NCBI GenBank assembly: GCA_017399175.1
Contig: JAFQEE010000056.1
Coordinates: 1 to 61,124, forward strand
Reading direction: 5' to 3'
Length of the DNA stretch: 61,124 nt
Source: Clostridia bacterium
GTDB lineage: Bacteria; Bacillota; Clostridia; Oscillospirales; Acutalibacteraceae
Part shown: positions 20,879-58,174 of the stretch, piece by piece
How the letters are laid out: every line of letters starts with the position of its first letter
Numbering within the stretch: position 1 is the first letter of the stretch
Made by a program: the position numbers and the translations under genes
Notes under the pieces: generated by a model
Told to the model about the DNA's origin: nothing
The model's database searches: none
The model's input: only the letters and a program-made list of their open reading frames with translations

Positions 20879-23503
20879 CTACTTCAACATACCGTGATAT
20901 CTGCCCATCCAATATGGAAGAGTGTATGTTGTAGAGCCTTCCATTTCGTAAGGTGAATGGGCACCGTCGAGCCTGAAGGTCAGACTGTTGAACTTATGGA
21001 GAGAACGCTCATCCGGAGCAGCAACCTTCCATTGAAGTCTTGACACACTAAAAACAACACCTATGAGCCTGATAATTTCACTGTTACTTCTCCAGAACAA
21101 CGGTTTCACCACATTCGGGTCATAACTGAGCTCGTTTGTACCACCAACTCCACAATCCTCTTCAAGGTCAAGTTCTCTGATATCATCTCGGTTTTCATTT
21201 GTTGCAAGGTATTTTATTGTTTCAATCGGATGACGTGAAAGTGACCACGCAGCAGTATCAATAAGTCTGTTTCCATAATAGTCTGTCTTTTCTTCATCAG
21301 GATAAGCAAGCTGATAGATATAATACCAAAGAGGATTTTCGCTGAAGCTTATTGAATACCACCAATCATCAATACCCTCTCTGTAATAAGCGAGAAGTTC
21401 CTCATCGTCCTCCATCTGGAAAAGAAGGTAGTAAGCAAGCATAGCCATTTCTTCATCGGAATCGTTAAGAATCATACGATATACAGTCTTTATTGTTTTA
21501 GTTTCCATAAACGGTCTGAGCAAAAGTGGGATAACTTTTGATACACTTGCTGCGTATTCCATAATAGCCATTTTATAGCGTTCCCAGTTCTGGGTCATAA
21601 TCGTTGCATATTCATATGCAGGGTCGAGGGCCGCCATACGATATTCATCTTCCCATTTTTGATTGCCTGTCACATAAGCAGCAAGTTTGAATACTGTCAG
21701 AAGAACTGCTGACTGAAGAGGAGCACCACCTAAAGCCTGACCGTTATGGAAGTATGTTCTGTTAAACTTTCCCCAGGTTGTAGGCTGGCCTGTTCCGTCA
21801 CAAAGACAATATCCGTTATCAACAAGATGCTGAGCAAACTTTTCTATTGTATTTACAATAAGTGCTTTCAGTTCAGGGTCTTCCTCGCCAAGAATATCGT
21901 AAGCTAACTTATAAATAAATAGATGTCCGATAATTTCGTCTGCACTTGTATCGCCTTTATACACAATGTCAGTTAAATCATAACCACTACCCACAAGGTC
22001 GTTCCAAAGTCTTTCCGGCAATTCACCGGAAGCGTCAACAACAACGCCTCTTAAATTTTCACCGTGAAGAAGGTATTCATCATCAGAAGGGTCTAATGTT
22101 GAAACACCTGTTGCCGTACCGTCACCATTGTGACTCCAATAAATATTACCGTCAAGAGCAAAATTTTCTTCCCGGAGAGAATATGTTCTTGCCCAGAAGC
22201 CTTCAAGAAGTCTTGTTCTTTTTGCATACTGATTATCTGTTTCAGCAGACGGTAATGTCCATGAATCAGGATTGAGAAGCGCAAGGTGGTCATCGGACAT
22301 AATGTATGTACGACGACCGATATTCATATAAGTTTTATTCATTTTTTCAAAAGAATCTGCAGGACTGCTGTCGGGAACGTTCTGAGAATAATCTCCGCCT
22401 TCAACAAGAGCTTCACTTGTATAATATTTACCCATATTCAGGTCTGTAACATTACCGTTTCTTTGTGCTCTTACATAACCTTCTGTAGTGCCTTGACGCA
22501 TTGAAATATATGTAAGGAAGAGAACAGCCTCTGTTGAAAGAGTTGCAGTTTTTCGAGCTTTTTCAATTTCCTCGACAGTTGCATTCGGGTCGTCACGAAG
22601 AACTGCATAGCGCATAAGCTCACCTGCACCATACATAGAAGTCCACAAACCATCATTGTCGGTTTCTGACGGAACAAAGTCACCGATAGCTTCGTTGTAG
22701 TATGAATTTGCTACCATACCGCGTCTTGCAACATCTTCCTGAGTGTTTTCGCTCATAATTGCAGCTTTGTCAGTACCATTCATTTCAATCATTTCAATAT
22801 GAGTATAACCTTCAGCCATAACTGTCCAGATACCGTTTCCTCCGTCAGAGAAAATAGCAAGAACATTTCCGTTACCGGAATCAGCACTGAAAAAATATCT
22901 GTCACCCATAAATCGCTGTTCGATATCACGGGAATTAGTTGCGTTGTTATCTGTACGAAGAACACCATAATCGGTAATTTCCCACACTGCACCATCATCA
23001 GCAGTTACGGTTTTAGCGTCCTGATAAGTACTTTCGTCCTTCACATTTGCAGGAACATCTGCACTGTCACTTTTTTTGTAACGAGTAACGATTTTCTGAA
23101 GAACATCGTTTTCATCTTCAGCTTCACCGTTGTAGTCTGTCTTGCCCTTGTTTGAATCCTTAATTTTTGTAGGTGTTTTTGTTACTGTGAGAACAGCAGA
23201 AGATGTGAGTCCGTCAGAAGTTTGTGCAGTAACAGTAACTGTACCTTCTTTGAGTGCTGTTACTCTGCCCCATTCATCAACAGATGCAATTTCTTCTGGC
23301 TGTGTACTCCATGTGAGAACTCTGTTTGTAACATCGGACGAGAAAACTGCTTCAACAGTTCTTGAATCACCTATGTCCATTTCCCAATTCTGGGGAACAA
23401 CTAACCTGAGTGTGTCTTTGTCCTTGAAACTTAATGCGAAAGCAGGGACACACGCTGACAACAGCATAACGATTGAAAGAATCAATGCAATTATTTTTTT
23501 CAT
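20879..23503 (-). CDS. Large secreted protein with Ig-like (BIG2) domain, function unknown
   Basis: An 874-residue exported protein. It has a signal peptide (about 1-23, with a possible lipobox-like LLSAC but no clear mature lipid site) and a BIG2 domain (about 30-110; WSTQPEEIASVDEWGRVTAL is typical). A charged linker follows (about 112-160), then a beta-rich part, and an alpha-helical region from about 500 that looks like a helical toroid (VDNGYCLCDGTGQPTTWGKF is its most striking segment). I know similar helical regions in uncharacterised secreted proteins but no activity. Base composition looks clearly more G+C-rich than flanking genes. It has its own promoter and AAGGAG. Confidence 0.75.
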   Translation of the reverse strand: MKKIIALILSIVMLLSACVPAFALSFKDKDTLRLVVPQNWEMDIGDSRTVEAVFSSDVTNRVLTWSTQPEEIASVDEWGRVTALKEGTVTVTAQTSDGLTSSAVLTVTKTPTKIKDSNKGKTDYNGEAEDENDVLQKIVTRYKKSDSADVPANVKDESTYQDAKTVTADDGAVWEITDYGVLRTDNNATNSRDIEQRFMGDRYFFSADSGNGNVLAIFSDGGNGIWTVMAEGYTHIEMIEMNGTDKAAIMSENTQEDVARRGMVANSYYNEAIGDFVPSETDNDGLWTSMYGAGELMRYAVLRDDPNATVEEIEKARKTATLSTEAVLFLTYISMRQGTTEGYVRAQRNGNVTDLNMGKYYTSEALVEGGDYSQNVPDSSPADSFEKMNKTYMNIGRRTYIMSDDHLALLNPDSWTLPSAETDNQYAKRTRLLEGFWARTYSLREENFALDGNIYWSHNGDGTATGVSTLDPSDDEYLLHGENLRGVVVDASGELPERLWNDLVGSGYDLTDIVYKGDTSADEIIGHLFIYKLAYDILGEEDPELKALIVNTIEKFAQHLVDNGYCLCDGTGQPTTWGKFNRTYFHNGQALGGAPLQSAVLLTVFKLAAYVTGNQKWEDEYRMAALDPAYEYATIMTQNWERYKMAIMEYAASVSKVIPLLLRPFMETKTIKTVYRMILNDSDEEMAMLAYYLLFQMEDDEELLAYYREGIDDWWYSISFSENPLWYYIYQLAYPDEEKTDYYGNRLIDTAAWSLSRHPIETIKYLATNENRDDIRELDLEEDCGVGGTNELSYDPNVVKPLFWRSNSEIIRLIGVVFSVSRLQWKVAAPDERSLHKFNSLTFRLDGAHSPYEMEGSTTYTLPYWMGRYHGMLK

Positions 23504-23551
23504 ATTTATTCTCCTTAATTAACGACATATCAGGATGTTACTTATGATATA

Positions 23552-23580
23552 ATTTTAACATTGACATAAAAGAATTGCAA
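23552..23580 (-). promoter_or_regulatory. Promoter of the secreted Ig-like protein gene
   Basis: On the minus strand TTGCAA (23580-23575), 17 bp, TAAAAT (23557-23552), 48 bp upstream of the start codon. Confidence 0.65.
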
Positions 23581-23645
23581 CAGTTTTGACTCAATAACTT
23601 TGGTTTATTAAGAGACACCTATAAATAACGTGTAATTTTATTATA

Positions 23646-23675
23646 CAAAAATATCCACCCATATTGGGCGGATAT
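23646..23675 (-). terminator. Terminator at the end of the prkC-thiN-spoVM operon
   Basis: An inverted repeat 23651-23660 / 23666-23675 (ATATCCGCCC with GGGTGGATAT on the minus strand, one G-T pair) is followed by a T run. It begins 3 bp after the spoVM stop. Confidence 0.83.
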
Positions 23676-23678
23676 TTT

Positions 23679-23765
23679 TTACTGTATTTCTGTTTTTGGG
23701 ATACCGAATAATTTTCGCAATATTCCACCTAAAAATTTTGGACTTTTCATTACAACAACTTTCAT
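23679..23765 (-). CDS. spoVM: Stage V sporulation protein M (28-residue membrane peptide)
   Basis: The frame 23765 to 23679 encodes 28 residues: MKVVVMKSPKFLGGILRKLF then GIPKTEIQ. B. subtilis SpoVM is 26 residues and aligns without gaps from Met1. Lys2, Lys7, Pro9, Lys10, Phe11, Leu12, Gly13, Gly14, Ile15, Arg17 and Gly21 are identical, including Pro9, important for recognising the forespore membrane. SpoVM is an amphipathic peptide that marks the curved outer forespore membrane and recruits SpoIVA to start coat assembly; it also restrains FtsH. GGGGAGG lies 7 nt before the ATG. The position after thiN is as in B. subtilis. A terminator follows. Confidence 0.9.
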   Translation of the reverse strand: MKVVVMKSPKFLGGILRKLFGIPKTEIQ

Positions 23766-23778
23766 AAAAAGGCCTCCC

Positions 23779-23925
23779 CTAACCCCTGCAAAGAGATATT
23801 CCACACAGCACAATAGTTATTGCAAGAATGACTATTACAGCTTTTGCGGGAAGAATCAAAGATATTAATAATCCAAGTCCTAACGCAATAAAAACTATTC
23901 CTTTTGAGCCTTTTCTTCTTCCCAT
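23779..23925 (-). CDS. Small membrane protein of 48 residues
   Basis: The frame 23925 to 23779 gives a basic N terminus (MGRRKGSKG) and two hydrophobic helices (about 10-25 and 29-45) with a Pro-Ala-Lys turn between, ending CRG. AGGGAGGT stands 6 nt before the ATG, an excellent ribosome site, and the gene lies 13 bp ahead of spoVM. I do not recognise the family by name; context suggests a sporulation or envelope role. A TATAAT on the minus strand (23962-23957), without a good -35 at usual spacing, could mark an extra start for these two small genes, e.g. by a sporulation sigma factor. Confidence 0.72.
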   Translation of the reverse strand: MGRRKGSKGIVFIALGLGLLISLILPAKAVIVILAITIVLCGISLCRG

Positions 23926-23981
23926 AAAAATACCTCCCTGCATATGTATTTACTACATTATACGCAAGGAGGTTTTCTTTG

Positions 23982-24617
23982 TTACAATTGAGTTTCAATT
24001 ATAATTATTGTTCCGTTTTTTACTGATATTTCACCATAATCATCAATTATGTCGTTGCTTGTTCCTAATGCACCATTGAATGGGTCAAGTGTATAATCAT
24101 CAAGTGAATAATGAAATCCTTCTAATGTAACACCCGATGCGTTTCCACCATAAGCAAAAACCGAAATCTGTTGATTATCTTTTTTTGCAATTTTTATTGA
24201 AGAATTGGTAATGCTTCTGAAAATATGTTTATCATCAATAATTTCAAGTGATATACCTGATTTTGAGGCATTCGCCATTAAGGATATGTTAGCAAAAGTA
24301 TGTTCAAATCGTCCGCCTGTGCCACCAAAAATAACAAATGATTTAAAACCAAGTTTTACGCCCTCGTTAAAGGCTGCTAAACAGTCTGTAACATCTTTTT
24401 CAACAGGGAGTTTAATCGTATTCACATTTGCAGGGATGTGTTTAATTGAGTCAAAATCACCAATTAAAAGGTCAACGCGAATTACGGCTTCTTCTGCTAT
24501 ATCGAAACCACTATCAGCACAAATAACAAAATAATCAGATGTAATATTGGATTTTAAGATATCGACGGTACAATCTCCGCCGCCGATAATTATACATCTT
24601 TTATTTATATTTCCCAT
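23982..24617 (-). CDS. thiN: Thiamine pyrophosphokinase
   Basis: A 211-residue ThiN/TPK1-type enzyme that transfers pyrophosphate from ATP to thiamine to give thiamine diphosphate. Visible motifs: CADSGFDIAEEA and LLIGDFDSIKH in the catalytic domain, PVEKDVTDCLAAF with conserved acidic residues, and GGTGGRFEHTFANI; the C-terminal beta-sandwich holds thiamine (GTSNDI near the end). It overlaps rsgA by 13 bp. In B. subtilis rpe stands between rsgA and thiN; here it is missing. Confidence 0.93.
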   Translation of the reverse strand: MGNINKRCIIIGGGDCTVDILKSNITSDYFVICADSGFDIAEEAVIRVDLLIGDFDSIKHIPANVNTIKLPVEKDVTDCLAAFNEGVKLGFKSFVIFGGTGGRFEHTFANISLMANASKSGISLEIIDDKHIFRSITNSSIKIAKKDNQQISVFAYGGNASGVTLEGFHYSLDDYTLDPFNGALGTSNDIIDDYGEISVKNGTIIIIETQL

Positions 24618-25480
24618 TCTTTAATTTCCTTTGCCTGATTATACATCTGGATATAATTGTTATGTCGCACTTCGCTTATTTCACCGTTTTTAACCGCCTC
24701 ACAAATGGTACAGCCTTTATCATTAACATGAGCACATGATGTAAATTTACAAGTACCGAGATATTCTCTGAATTCTCTGAAACAATATGGCAAATCATCT
24801 TTCTTGATAACCTCTGTCTTTTCAAACTCAAAAGAAGAAAAACCCGGTGTATCAATAACATATCCACCACAAACATTAAAAAGTTGTGCCTGACGAGTTG
24901 TATGGCGACCTCGTCCCAATTTATCACTTATTGCAGCTGTTGATAAATTAAGTGTATTATCAAGTTTATTCAACAAGGTTGTTTTTCCAACACCCGAATT
25001 ACCGGTAAAAGCACTGATTTTACCACTCATAATTGATTTTATTTTATCAAGTGAATCATTATCATCAAGAGCAATAACAGTAATTCCTGAATTTTTATAA
25101 ACATTGAATATATCTTCATATGAAGACAAATCAGTTTTTGAAATGACAATATATGGTTCAATGTTTTTGTATTCAGCAGTTGCTATAAGCTTATCAATAA
25201 CAAAAAAGTTAGGTTTTGGTTCAACTGTTGAAACAACTATTATTAAATTGTCAATATTGGATACGGGCGGTCTGTTAAGTGAATTTTTCCTATCGCAGAT
25301 TAAATCAATGGTATTTTCTGCATTGTCATTAACAGTTATTTCTACTGTATCACCAACAAGAGGAGTAATCTTGTTTTTTCTGAAAATACCTCTTGCTTTA
25401 CATTCATATGTCGCATTGGCGACTTCAACATAATAGAAGCCGCCAATACCTTTTGTAATTATACCTTTATATTTTTCCAT
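24605..25480 (-). CDS. rsgA: Ribosome small-subunit GTPase RsgA
   Basis: A 291-residue circularly permuted GTPase that matures the 30S subunit. The N-terminal OB-fold (about 1-65) carries RNRPPVSNID-type G-domain entry, then SKTDL (G4) precedes GNSGVGKTTLLN (G1, near 160) and DTPGFSSFE (G3), the permuted order. The C-terminal zinc knuckle has CKFTSCAH...GCTICEA. It sits 8 bp behind prkC. The order prpC-prkC-rsgA is conserved across Bacillota. Confidence 0.95.
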   Translation of the reverse strand: MEKYKGIITKGIGGFYYVEVANATYECKARGIFRKNKITPLVGDTVEITVNDNAENTIDLICDRKNSLNRPPVSNIDNLIIVVSTVEPKPNFFVIDKLIATAEYKNIEPYIVISKTDLSSYEDIFNVYKNSGITVIALDDNDSLDKIKSIMSGKISAFTGNSGVGKTTLLNKLDNTLNLSTAAISDKLGRGRHTTRQAQLFNVCGGYVIDTPGFSSFEFEKTEVIKKDDLPYCFREFREYLGTCKFTSCAHVNDKGCTICEAVKNGEISEVRHNNYIQMYNQAKEIKEWEI

Positions 25481-25487
25481 AAATCAA

Positions 25488-27632
25488 TTAATATGTTGCA
25501 GGAGCACCTGAACTTACATTTAAAGTTATAGATTCATTTGTTGAATATTTAGTAATACCGTCAGCATTTGGAATCTGAGATATAACGACACCATATGGAA
25601 CTGTCACACTTGGCTGTTTTACAGTTTCAACATTTTTAAATCCTGCATTTTTAAGTTTATCAATAGCCTCTTGTTCTCTCATTCCTTCAACATTTATCAA
25701 TACAACTTTATTTTCAAAGGTGATTTCTTCAACTTCAGTAATCACAGCAGGTTCTTGTGTAAAATCAACCTTACCCTTCTGAACTGGAGAATCATCAATA
25801 GTAATTGTATAATTGTTTTCAGAACCCGAACCTGACAATGTAAACTGCTTTGTTGCACCGTCAAGATAAAGTTCTTCTGATGTGTAGAAAAGAACACTAT
25901 TAAGATATATCTTTAAAATACCTGTCTTATTAACTGATGGTAATGTAACATAAACATCAACTGATGATGCAGGTGGAATACCGTTACTTACTGAAAAATC
26001 AATTTTTGAGCCAATAGGAACTTCAGTATCTTTTTCGACACTCTGCTGAACAACAATTCCTGCTTCAAGTTCACTATTAACTTCTGTAATTGTTCCAACT
26101 TCAAGGTCAACAGCATTAAGCGCTTGTTCAGCCGCTTCTTTTGATGAGCCTTGAATATCAGGCATTTTAACAGTTTCCTGAGTATCGGTTGCAATGTATA
26201 AAACAACCTCAGAACCAATTCTTACAGTCGAACCTATTTCCGGTGATGTTCTTACAACACAACCCGGTGTAACGGTATCTGAATATTCTGTAATAACAGT
26301 TGAAATAATACTTCTTGAATTAAGATAACTTTTTGCTTTTTCTTCTGTCATTCCAATTATTGATGCATCAAGTAAAATGCTATTTTTCTGTGCAATTGTC
26401 AATGTAATTGTAGAACCTTTTTTAACTTTTGTACTTGAGTCAGGGTCTTGTGTTATAACTGTACCGTCTTCTAAAGTAGAATTTTCTTCTATTTTAATTT
26501 CAAAATTGAAGATGTCAGTATATGTTTTAACATTTTCAATCTGGGTGTAATAATTAAAACCGGTAAAATTAGGAACTTCTACTTTCTGGTTACTTGTGCC
26601 CATCAAAATAGCACCTATTATAAGTGCTAAAACTATAATACCTGCAACAGCACCCATCATAACTGCCGTTGTTTTGTTCATAGCACTTTTTTCAGCTGTA
26701 TTATTTTCATTCACAACTCGCTGCTCTCTGTTAGGTACATTATTAGTTCTTATATATTTTGTTGGTTCACTATCAACAAAGTAGTTATAATCGAATTTAA
26801 CAGAAGGATTTCTCTTAAACTCGTTTATATCCATAAGCATTTCTGCAGCAGAACCATAACGACTATTTGGACTTTTCTGCATTGCTCTCATTGTAATCTG
26901 TTCAAGGCCTAATGGAATTGTAGGTACAATTTCACGAGGCAATTTAGGATCCTGCTGAAGTTGCATTATAGCAACAGACACAGCGCTGTCAGATTGAAAT
27001 GGTAACTGTCCTGTAAGCATTTCGTACATAACAACACCAACAGAATAGATATCTGCCTTATCATCAGTTACTTCGCCTCTTGCCTGTTCAGGGCTGATGT
27101 AGTGAACTGAACCAATTGCTTTATCTGATGTTGTATTTGAATCTGTACGGCTGAATCTTGCAATACCAAAGTCAGTAACCTTGATTGTACCGTCCTGAAG
27201 AAGTAATATGTTCTGTGGTTTAATGTCCTGATGAACAATTCCTTTATCATGAGCGTGTTGAAGTGCAGCAAGAATCTGTCCCATAAAATGGACTGCTTCT
27301 TTCCAGTTAATTGCACCCTGCTGTTCAATGTATTCTTTTAATGTAATTCCGTTAACATATTCCATTACAATATATTGAATTCGGTCACCAAAACTAACAT
27401 TAAAAACTCGAACAATATTCGGATGAGAAAGGACAGCAATAGCCTTTGATTCATTTTTAAATCTTCGTTTAAATTCTTCGTTAGAAAGATACTCATCTTT
27501 AAGAATTTTAATAGCAACAATTCTGTCGTCAATGTTATCGTATGCCTTATAAACAACAGCCATTCCGCCAACACCGATTATTTCCTTGATTTCATATCTT
27601 CCGTCAATTCTTTTGCCACAAAAATTATCCAT
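25488..27632 (-). CDS. prkC: PASTA-domain Ser/Thr protein kinase
   Basis: A 714-residue transmembrane Hanks-type kinase. Cytoplasmic kinase domain (1-270): GVGGMAVVYKA P-loop, VAIKIL lysine, catalytic loop VHQDIKPQN, DFGIARF, SPEQARG. A juxtamembrane linker and one helix (about 327-350) follow. Outside are PASTA repeats at about 355-420, 421-488 and 490-557, then a roughly 80-residue beta-rich insert without PASTA features, then a final PASTA repeat (about 643-708). PASTA domains bind muropeptides/lipid II and couple wall status to growth and spore germination. The catalytic loop reads HQD in place of HRD. It is paired with prpC, 22-23 bp upstream. Confidence 0.95.
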   Translation of the reverse strand: MDNFCGKRIDGRYEIKEIIGVGGMAVVYKAYDNIDDRIVAIKILKDEYLSNEEFKRRFKNESKAIAVLSHPNIVRVFNVSFGDRIQYIVMEYVNGITLKEYIEQQGAINWKEAVHFMGQILAALQHAHDKGIVHQDIKPQNILLLQDGTIKVTDFGIARFSRTDSNTTSDKAIGSVHYISPEQARGEVTDDKADIYSVGVVMYEMLTGQLPFQSDSAVSVAIMQLQQDPKLPREIVPTIPLGLEQITMRAMQKSPNSRYGSAAEMLMDINEFKRNPSVKFDYNYFVDSEPTKYIRTNNVPNREQRVVNENNTAEKSAMNKTTAVMMGAVAGIIVLALIIGAILMGTSNQKVEVPNFTGFNYYTQIENVKTYTDIFNFEIKIEENSTLEDGTVITQDPDSSTKVKKGSTITLTIAQKNSILLDASIIGMTEEKAKSYLNSRSIISTVITEYSDTVTPGCVVRTSPEIGSTVRIGSEVVLYIATDTQETVKMPDIQGSSKEAAEQALNAVDLEVGTITEVNSELEAGIVVQQSVEKDTEVPIGSKIDFSVSNGIPPASSVDVYVTLPSVNKTGILKIYLNSVLFYTSEELYLDGATKQFTLSGSGSENNYTITIDDSPVQKGKVDFTQEPAVITEVEEITFENKVVLINVEGMREQEAIDKLKNAGFKNVETVKQPSVTVPYGVVISQIPNADGITKYSTNESITLNVSSGAPATY

Positions 27633-57224: not shown

Positions 57225-57241
57225 AATATAATATATTAGTT

Positions 57242-57349
57242 GTCTTCAGGGCGGAGTGAAATTCTCCACCGGTGGTAAAGTCCACGAGCCATATAGCTGA
57301 ATGGGTGTAATTCCCATACCGACGGTATAGTCCGGATGAAAGAAGATGC
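57242..57349 (+). promoter_or_regulatory. FMN riboswitch (RFN element)
   Basis: The conserved RFN segments are in order: CTTCAGGGCGGAGTGAAATT, CTCCACCGGTGGTAAAGTCC, ACGAGCC, ATTCCCATACCGACGGTATAG and TCCGGATGAAAGAAGATGC (each within 20 bases in one copy). The paired helices P2-P6 can be drawn and the ends form P1. It binds FMN and controls the downstream transport gene by termination. Confidence 0.95.
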
Positions 57350-57370
57350 AACATTTTTGTTACATTTAAG

Positions 57371-58048: not shown

Positions 58049-58068
58049 ATATAAGAACTTAATATATC

Positions 58069-58163
58069 CCTTATGCAGAGTGGTGGAGGGTCTGGCCCTG
58101 TGAAGCCCAGCAACCTGCTTTTATGCAAGGTGCTAATTCCTGCGGATTATCCGAGATATAAGG
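58069..58163 (+). promoter_or_regulatory. SAM-I (S-box) riboswitch
   Basis: The S-box core is seen: CCTTAT (P1 left), GCAGAGTGGTGGAGGGTCTGG, CCCTGTGAAGCCCAGCAACC, then GGTGCTAATTCCTGCGG and ATAAGG (P1 right, 58158-58163). It senses S-adenosylmethionine and represses metK when SAM is high. Confidence 0.95.
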
Positions 58164-58174
58164 TTGTAATTAAA

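Follow-up and report, generated by a model that had tools for sequence, protein, structure and literature searches.

A small hydrophobic peptide encoded directly upstream of spoVM is a widespread, selected operon partner of this gene in Clostridia, with one published member in C. difficile

In B. subtilis, the short amphipathic peptide SpoVM is located on the outer forespore membrane, where it anchors SpoIVA. The locus described here lies in a stretch of 61,124 nucleotides (contig JAFQEE010000056.1, from a Clostridia bacterium of the Acutalibacteraceae), referred to below as the window, and raises the question of what is encoded in the gap after thiN and whether its products act together. The original prediction placed two micro-genes there, of 48 and 28 codons, each with a strong ribosome-binding site and each followed by a terminator. 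Both frames were found where they had been placed, and the gene order on the minus strand is thiN, the 48-codon frame (hereafter X), spoVM and a strong hairpin. The upstream neighbour of X is thiN (23982..24617), which encodes a thiamine diphosphokinase of 211 aa (TIGR01378, 138.1 bits, cut-off 76.4). X occupies 23779..23925, with its ATG at 23925 and its stop codon at 23781-23779, and is preceded at 23939-23932 by the ribosome-binding site AGGGAGGT, a G-rich site also seen before the start in the loci of the genus. A second possible start lies at 23943 in the window; the genus alignment and the ribosome-binding site favour 23925 as the probable start. The spoVM gene occupies 23679..23765 (ATG at 23765, stop codon at 23681-23679), and its ribosome-binding site GGGGAGG, read in the sequence at 23779-23773, overlaps the X stop codon by one base. 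The two ribosome-binding sites were thus correctly called. The terminators were not: there is a single strong terminator-like hairpin, 3' of spoVM (23647..23679; -20.1 kcal/mol, z -6.0, none of 200 shuffles as good), and X runs into the spoVM ribosome-binding site. A pattern scan for terminators listed none, because the T run sits inside the stem of the spoVM hairpin, and an Rfam search of 23400-24700 returned no family at E<=1. With this layout, X and spoVM would form a two-gene sporulation operon filling the gap after thiN.

Several other features of the window were recorded. A PASTA-domain Ser/Thr kinase gene lies upstream of rsgA and thiN (25488-27632, minus strand; NF033483, 557.1 bits, cut-off 450). 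On the other side of the locus, an 874-aa protein (20879-23503, minus strand) has a signal-like stretch at its N terminus and a single Big_2 domain (25.2 bits vs a cut-off of 22.8), apart from which nothing exceeded the cut-offs in Pfam or NCBIfam. An FMN riboswitch (57238-57351, 112.1 bits) and a SAM riboswitch (58068-58164, 81.0 bits), both on the plus strand, scored over their Rfam gathering scores.

The 28-residue product passes the cut-off of the NCBIfam SpoVM_broad model NF033436 (42.2 vs 31 bits, E 5.7e-11) and misses that of the Pfam SpoV model PF08183 (16.8 vs 20.6 bits), which we judge to be a narrower, Bacillus-based model. Its translation, MKVVVMKSPKFLGGILRKLFGIPKTEIQ, contains Pro9 and the KFLGGI core, and it resembles B. 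subtilis SpoVM in these features, in length (28 residues, against 26 in B. subtilis) and in its site after thiN. SpoIVA is encoded in the host genome, which has 2.1 Mb and is 96.9% complete (SpoIVA_C match, E 3.7e-36). The genome also encodes a SigK that lies over the NF004471 cut-off (283.5 vs 252) and under that of TIGR02846, and a SigE-like protein that matches the SigE models best and falls just below both cut-offs (334 vs 339 and 318.3 vs 348.6). The SigE-like gene adjoins a SpoIIGA-like frame, by reading of that frame alone. Because the NCBIfam cut-off is passed and SpoIVA, SigK and a SigE-like protein are encoded in the genome, the identification of the 28-codon frame as SpoVM, as originally proposed, is supported, and this part of the locus is ordinary: a spore former with spoVM at the usual site. 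Binding of the convex membrane and of SpoIVA is predicted for the window protein.

X was found by a single-sequence search in 33 of the 35 other genomes of the genus, the two misses being 75% and 88% complete. Among 23 genomes from the order's other families, 11 gave weak matches (E<=0.1) in the same search; since matches beyond the genus were only of this kind, profiles were required there (A1, built from 25 genus rows; A2, from 47 rows; A3, from 48 rows). A SpoVM-like frame follows X in all 30 genus loci compared, the window locus included. When X was codon-aligned across these loci, none of the 435 pairs had pN/pS>=1, and the eight closest pairs (pS<0.4) had values of 0.00-0.23. X is a real gene under purifying selection in close pairs, and its frame is conserved in relatives, as the original prediction implied. 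Of the two outcomes that would have refuted that prediction, loss of the frames in relatives and absence of SpoIVA from the genome, neither was observed.

Across 145 pooled loci, X has a median length of 50 residues (range 42-62); the N-terminal net charge is at least +2 in 86%, and 138 carry a proline in the central third and 89 a cysteine among the last eight residues. The central proline is the sole invariant residue of profile A3, and the second Gly is kept in at least 90%. The layout is a basic N terminus followed by two hydrophobic stretches that flank a Leu-Pro turn, which we read as a membrane hairpin. AlphaFold, run on the single window sequence with no alignment, gave one long helix over residues 9-47 (mean pLDDT 82, pTM 0.44). 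The X profile matched no PDB sequence at E<=1, and neither Pfam nor NCBIfam has a model for the family. The nearest Pfam candidate, DUF6249 (PF19762), reached 21.4 bits vs a cut-off of 33, covered only a hydrophobic part and was weakly matched by 4 of 48 family members; we took this likeness as chance. NCBIfam candidates for the 48 members were scattered, YtaF appearing in 4 (best E 0.0053), and were set aside.

To describe the spread of X, we compared its matches with those of SpoVM in three samples of genomes, in which counts of X presence are a lower bound, as the profile misses divergent members. In the order sample, X was found in 37 and SpoVM in 102 of 197 genomes, and the best X match adjoined SpoVM in 17 of the 17 genomes with both. 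In the class sample (Clostridia, E<=0.01), X was found in 118 and SpoVM in 105 of 293 genomes. There were 126 X matches, 46 in genomes with a SpoVM match and 80 in genomes without one; 39 of the 46 preceded SpoVM by 8-89 nt on the same strand, and the seven lying elsewhere all had E>=1.2e-3. In the phylum sample, X was found in 83 (E<=0.01) and SpoVM in 44 (E<=0.001) of 299 genomes, and at E<1e-3 26 of the 27 X matches in SpoVM-positive genomes adjoined SpoVM, a count that took in 67 X matches and excluded three weaker adjacent ones. Among the 46 strongest of the 80 class-sample matches without a SpoVM match, 40 loci were read; of the other six, four were already among the loci collected. Judged by pattern or by eye, X was immediately followed by a SpoVM-like frame in 32 of the 40. 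When all X loci were pooled without identical copies, a SpoVM-like frame (at least 8 bits, within 170 nt) followed in 129 of 145, a proportion biased upward by the inclusion of loci retrieved via SpoVM; five shuffles of the pooled loci gave 1, 0, 0, 0 and 0 such frames. The gap between X and SpoVM has a median of 15 nt in loci scoring at least 10 bits. The linkage also holds away from thiN: among the 139 loci whose upstream DNA was long enough, 67 showed neither a thiN nor an rsgA motif by a crude test.

The presence of X follows that of SpoIVA, which was found in 219 of the 293 Clostridia genomes. At E<=1e-3, X was present in 90 of the 219 SpoIVA-positive and 5 of the 74 SpoIVA-negative genomes (p=4e-9, ignoring kinship); at E<=0.01, the counts were 108 and 10. 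The five SpoIVA-negative carriers (G272, G280, G303, G313 and G502) are draft assemblies, 91-99% complete; X precedes SpoVM in four of them and lies at the thiN site in G303. At the SpoVM sites of the class sample that lacked an adjacent X match, of which 55 of 66 were read, 44 had no X-like frame. An X-like hydrophobic frame lay upstream in the other 11 by a loose criterion (0-2 of 55 in shuffles), one of which (L196) was unlike X in appearance. Seven loci with a Bacillus-like SpoVM had no X-like frame within 150 nt. From these two sets of loci, X is neither universal nor present in the Bacillus-like genomes sampled.

Gene-context analysis further connects X with other genes of the coat basement layer. 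Among the matches listed, 71 genomes had a site for both X and spoIVA; in 12 of them, which come from three families and differ in arrangement, the two lay less than 4 kb apart. For SpoVM sites without an X match, spoIVA lay within 4 kb in 0 of 47. In three loci of one family (f14; L042, L118 and L060), the gene directly after X was not spoVM; it encoded a SPOCS domain (PF12673, 56.8-64.5 bits, cut-off 23.6), in a frame that ran off the locus. X itself has no PF12673 match and is not a SPOCS protein. From the Pfam name, we take SipL to be a SPOCS carrier. SipL of C. difficile is reported to bind SpoIVA. In L060, by eye, one of the frames upstream of X resembles a PASTA protein and another RsgA.

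No SpoVM stood behind X in eight of the 40 loci read; seven belong to family f42, which includes Lutispora, and one to f83. Where the locus was read in detail, X is flanked by thiN on one side and by a reverse rpmB-like frame on the other. This thiN-rpmB site without SpoVM was seen in f42 loci L163, L171, L176, L184 and others, and also in L342, and X at G431:C1:113758-113895 is in the same place as in Lutispora saccharofermentans. No f42 genome had a SpoVM match at E<=0.01, and SpoIVA was present in 6 of the 7 f42 genomes read. Among named genomes, X was kept and SpoVM was not found in Lutispora saccharofermentans, Schnuerera sp. xch1 and Tissierella simiarum, where the best SpoVM matches at E<=10 had E-values of 0.17, 0.26 and 2.85, respectively.

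One member of the family has been published. In a search of 22 named genomes with profile A2, which was built without any row known to come from the family of C. difficile, all 3 of the C. difficile genomes searched, out of four found, gave a match (E 4.7e-6 to 5.4e-6) to a frame of 50 aa whose end lies 35 nt ahead of spoVM. At E<=0.01, A2 matched nothing in Peptacetobacter hominis, three Peptostreptococcus, Soehngenia longivitae, Firmicutes bacterium FC7, Clostridium sp. Cult3, Tissierella pigra, T. praeacuta and Caloramator fervidus, the last of which has an X-like frame by eye (E 0.04). Several of these X-negative genomes are presumably those of non-sporulators. By place and length, the C. 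difficile member is CD25622 of Ribis 2017 (PMC5607322): like X, it encodes about 50 aa and lies immediately 5' of spoVM, on the same strand, and one profile joins the two. In that paper, CD25622 has 50 aa and a function given as unknown, is cotranscribed with spoVM, which is under sigma-E, and is called unique to Peptostreptococcaceae, whereas the X profile matches far more widely. RNA-seq and a mutant exist for CD25622, and the paper reports that insertion in CD25622 or in spoVM gave the same 3-4 fold loss of heat resistance, that complementation used both genes together, and that the authors conclude that CD25622 has little impact. SpoVM is described there as largely dispensable in C. difficile, although B. 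subtilis cannot do without it. Because the CD25622 insertion is probably polar on spoVM and both genes were supplied in the complementation, these experiments are not a clean test of X in C. difficile; the probably polar mutant as published adds nothing to the spoVM phenotype. In the literature searched, the name CD25622 was found in PMC5607322 alone, and a 2026 preprint on ShfA had no bearing on X. The original description of X as lacking a known name and perhaps being new is therefore only partly right: CD25622 had already been noticed, and what is new is the breadth of the family, the ties of X to further genes of the basement layer and its persistence where SpoVM is missing.

We further examined the promoter region of X in a dereplicated set of 101 genes; since these sequences also served to define the motif, the counts are descriptive. 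GTAACA was found upstream of 27 of the 101 (2.1 expected), and a -10-like box ([ACG]ATATANT or CGTATANT) in 50 (8.1 in shuffles). An AC stood 16 nt before the -10-like box in 34 (0.44 expected) and 17 nt before it in 10, so that a bipartite motif like AC-N16/17-NATATANT was present in 44; the AC-N14 spacing was raised too (11 of 101). A -35 of the sigma-E type (ATA) at N16-18 was at background level, with 0, 0 and 2 of 101, and TTGACA showed no enrichment (1 of 101 vs 2.4 expected). In the window, the candidate boxes for X and spoVM are a -35-like TTGTAACA that overlaps the end of thiN (23980..23987, minus strand), supported by the GTAACA enrichment, and a -10-like CGTATAAT (23957..23964, minus strand), 16 nt past the AC of the upstream box and supported by the bipartite motif counts. 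By the rule of Saujet et al., the motif is mother-cell-like and of a predicted sigma-K type, which sits uneasily with the sigma-E control of spoVM in C. difficile. The window boxes may be read equally well as a sigma-A promoter (GTAACA-17-TATAAT, 10/12). Immediately before TATANT, 62 of 89 loci have A, 22 have G, 4 have C and 1 has T; the window has G. None of the -10 patterns tried was found upstream of spoIVA in the host genome. Cotranscription and sigma-E dependence of spoVM have been published for C. difficile only, and the promoter motif and the one terminator make the window pair a candidate for the same arrangement.

All these results indicate that X is a real gene under selection, that it is widely distributed as an operon partner of spoVM, and that its one published member is uncharacterised. 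Given the linkage to spoVM, the spoIVA and SPOCS neighbours, the co-occurrence with SpoIVA and the promoter motif, we infer that X is a two-helix membrane component of the spore-coat basement layer, with a probability of about 0.6. SpoVM on the outer forespore membrane would anchor SpoIVA, and X, a peptide of about 50 residues with a putative hairpin topology, would lie in the membrane beside SpoVM and act at the same site. The original suggestion of a SpoVM partner or coat component thus stands as the best reading of X, as a function deduced from these associations. Several results weigh against it: the CD25622 insertion was no worse than the spoVM insertion; many spoVM loci lack X, and X is kept where SpoVM was not found; the single-sequence AlphaFold model is a helix and not a hairpin; and the window promoter is also sigma-A-like. 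X may instead serve some other mother-cell or membrane task, its place in the operon reflecting common timing. Small hydrophobic peptides vary freely, and 129 of the 219 SpoIVA-positive genomes had no X match at E<=1e-3 (X presence being a lower bound). This alternative is possible, though the repeated ties of X to three basement-layer genes, spoVM, spoIVA and the SPOCS gene, make it doubtful.

It is somewhat less probable, and in our view unlikely, that X is a stand-in for SpoVM, that is, a second basement-layer anchor that is redundant with SpoVM and replaces it where it was lost. The family that includes Lutispora has X between thiN and rpmB where spoVM would be, with SpoIVA kept in most of its genomes that were read; Schnuerera and Tissierella simiarum show a like pattern, and the reported near-dispensability of SpoVM in C. 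difficile would fit as well. However, the sequences of X and SpoVM are not alike, these genomes may carry a very divergent SpoVM elsewhere, and the CD25622 insertion, probably also SpoVM-less, was no worse than the spoVM insertion (PMC5607322). The overlap of the X stop codon with the spoVM ribosome-binding site in the window and the short median gap would suit a leader peptide or translational coupler, in which the translation of X, and not its product, sets SpoVM output; this is improbable in view of the selection at the amino-acid level and of the loci in which X stands without SpoVM or before a SPOCS gene. The size and hydrophobicity of X are also those of a type I toxin-like peptide. Matches to such peptides were isolated and weak (for example, 1 of 48 members to YonT, E 0.086), and we rejected this very remote reading on the fixed single operon site, the tie to SpoIVA and the empty Rfam result for the region.

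A broader form of the basement-layer reading is that X is a general clostridial membrane anchor of that layer, inherited from the ancestor of Clostridia and in part interchangeable with SpoVM: mostly beside SpoVM, with spoIVA or a SPOCS gene elsewhere, and replacing SpoVM in Lutispora and its relatives. We hold this extension tentatively and consider it rather doubtful; if true, it would explain the near-dispensability of SpoVM outside Bacilli. As SpoVM-like frames lie behind X in 32 of the 40 loci without a SpoVM match, X is also a handy marker of spoVM, which is often missed in annotation. As a membrane component of the basement layer, X would provide a concrete second component for the attachment of the coat to the forespore in Clostridia that lack the full B. 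subtilis apparatus.
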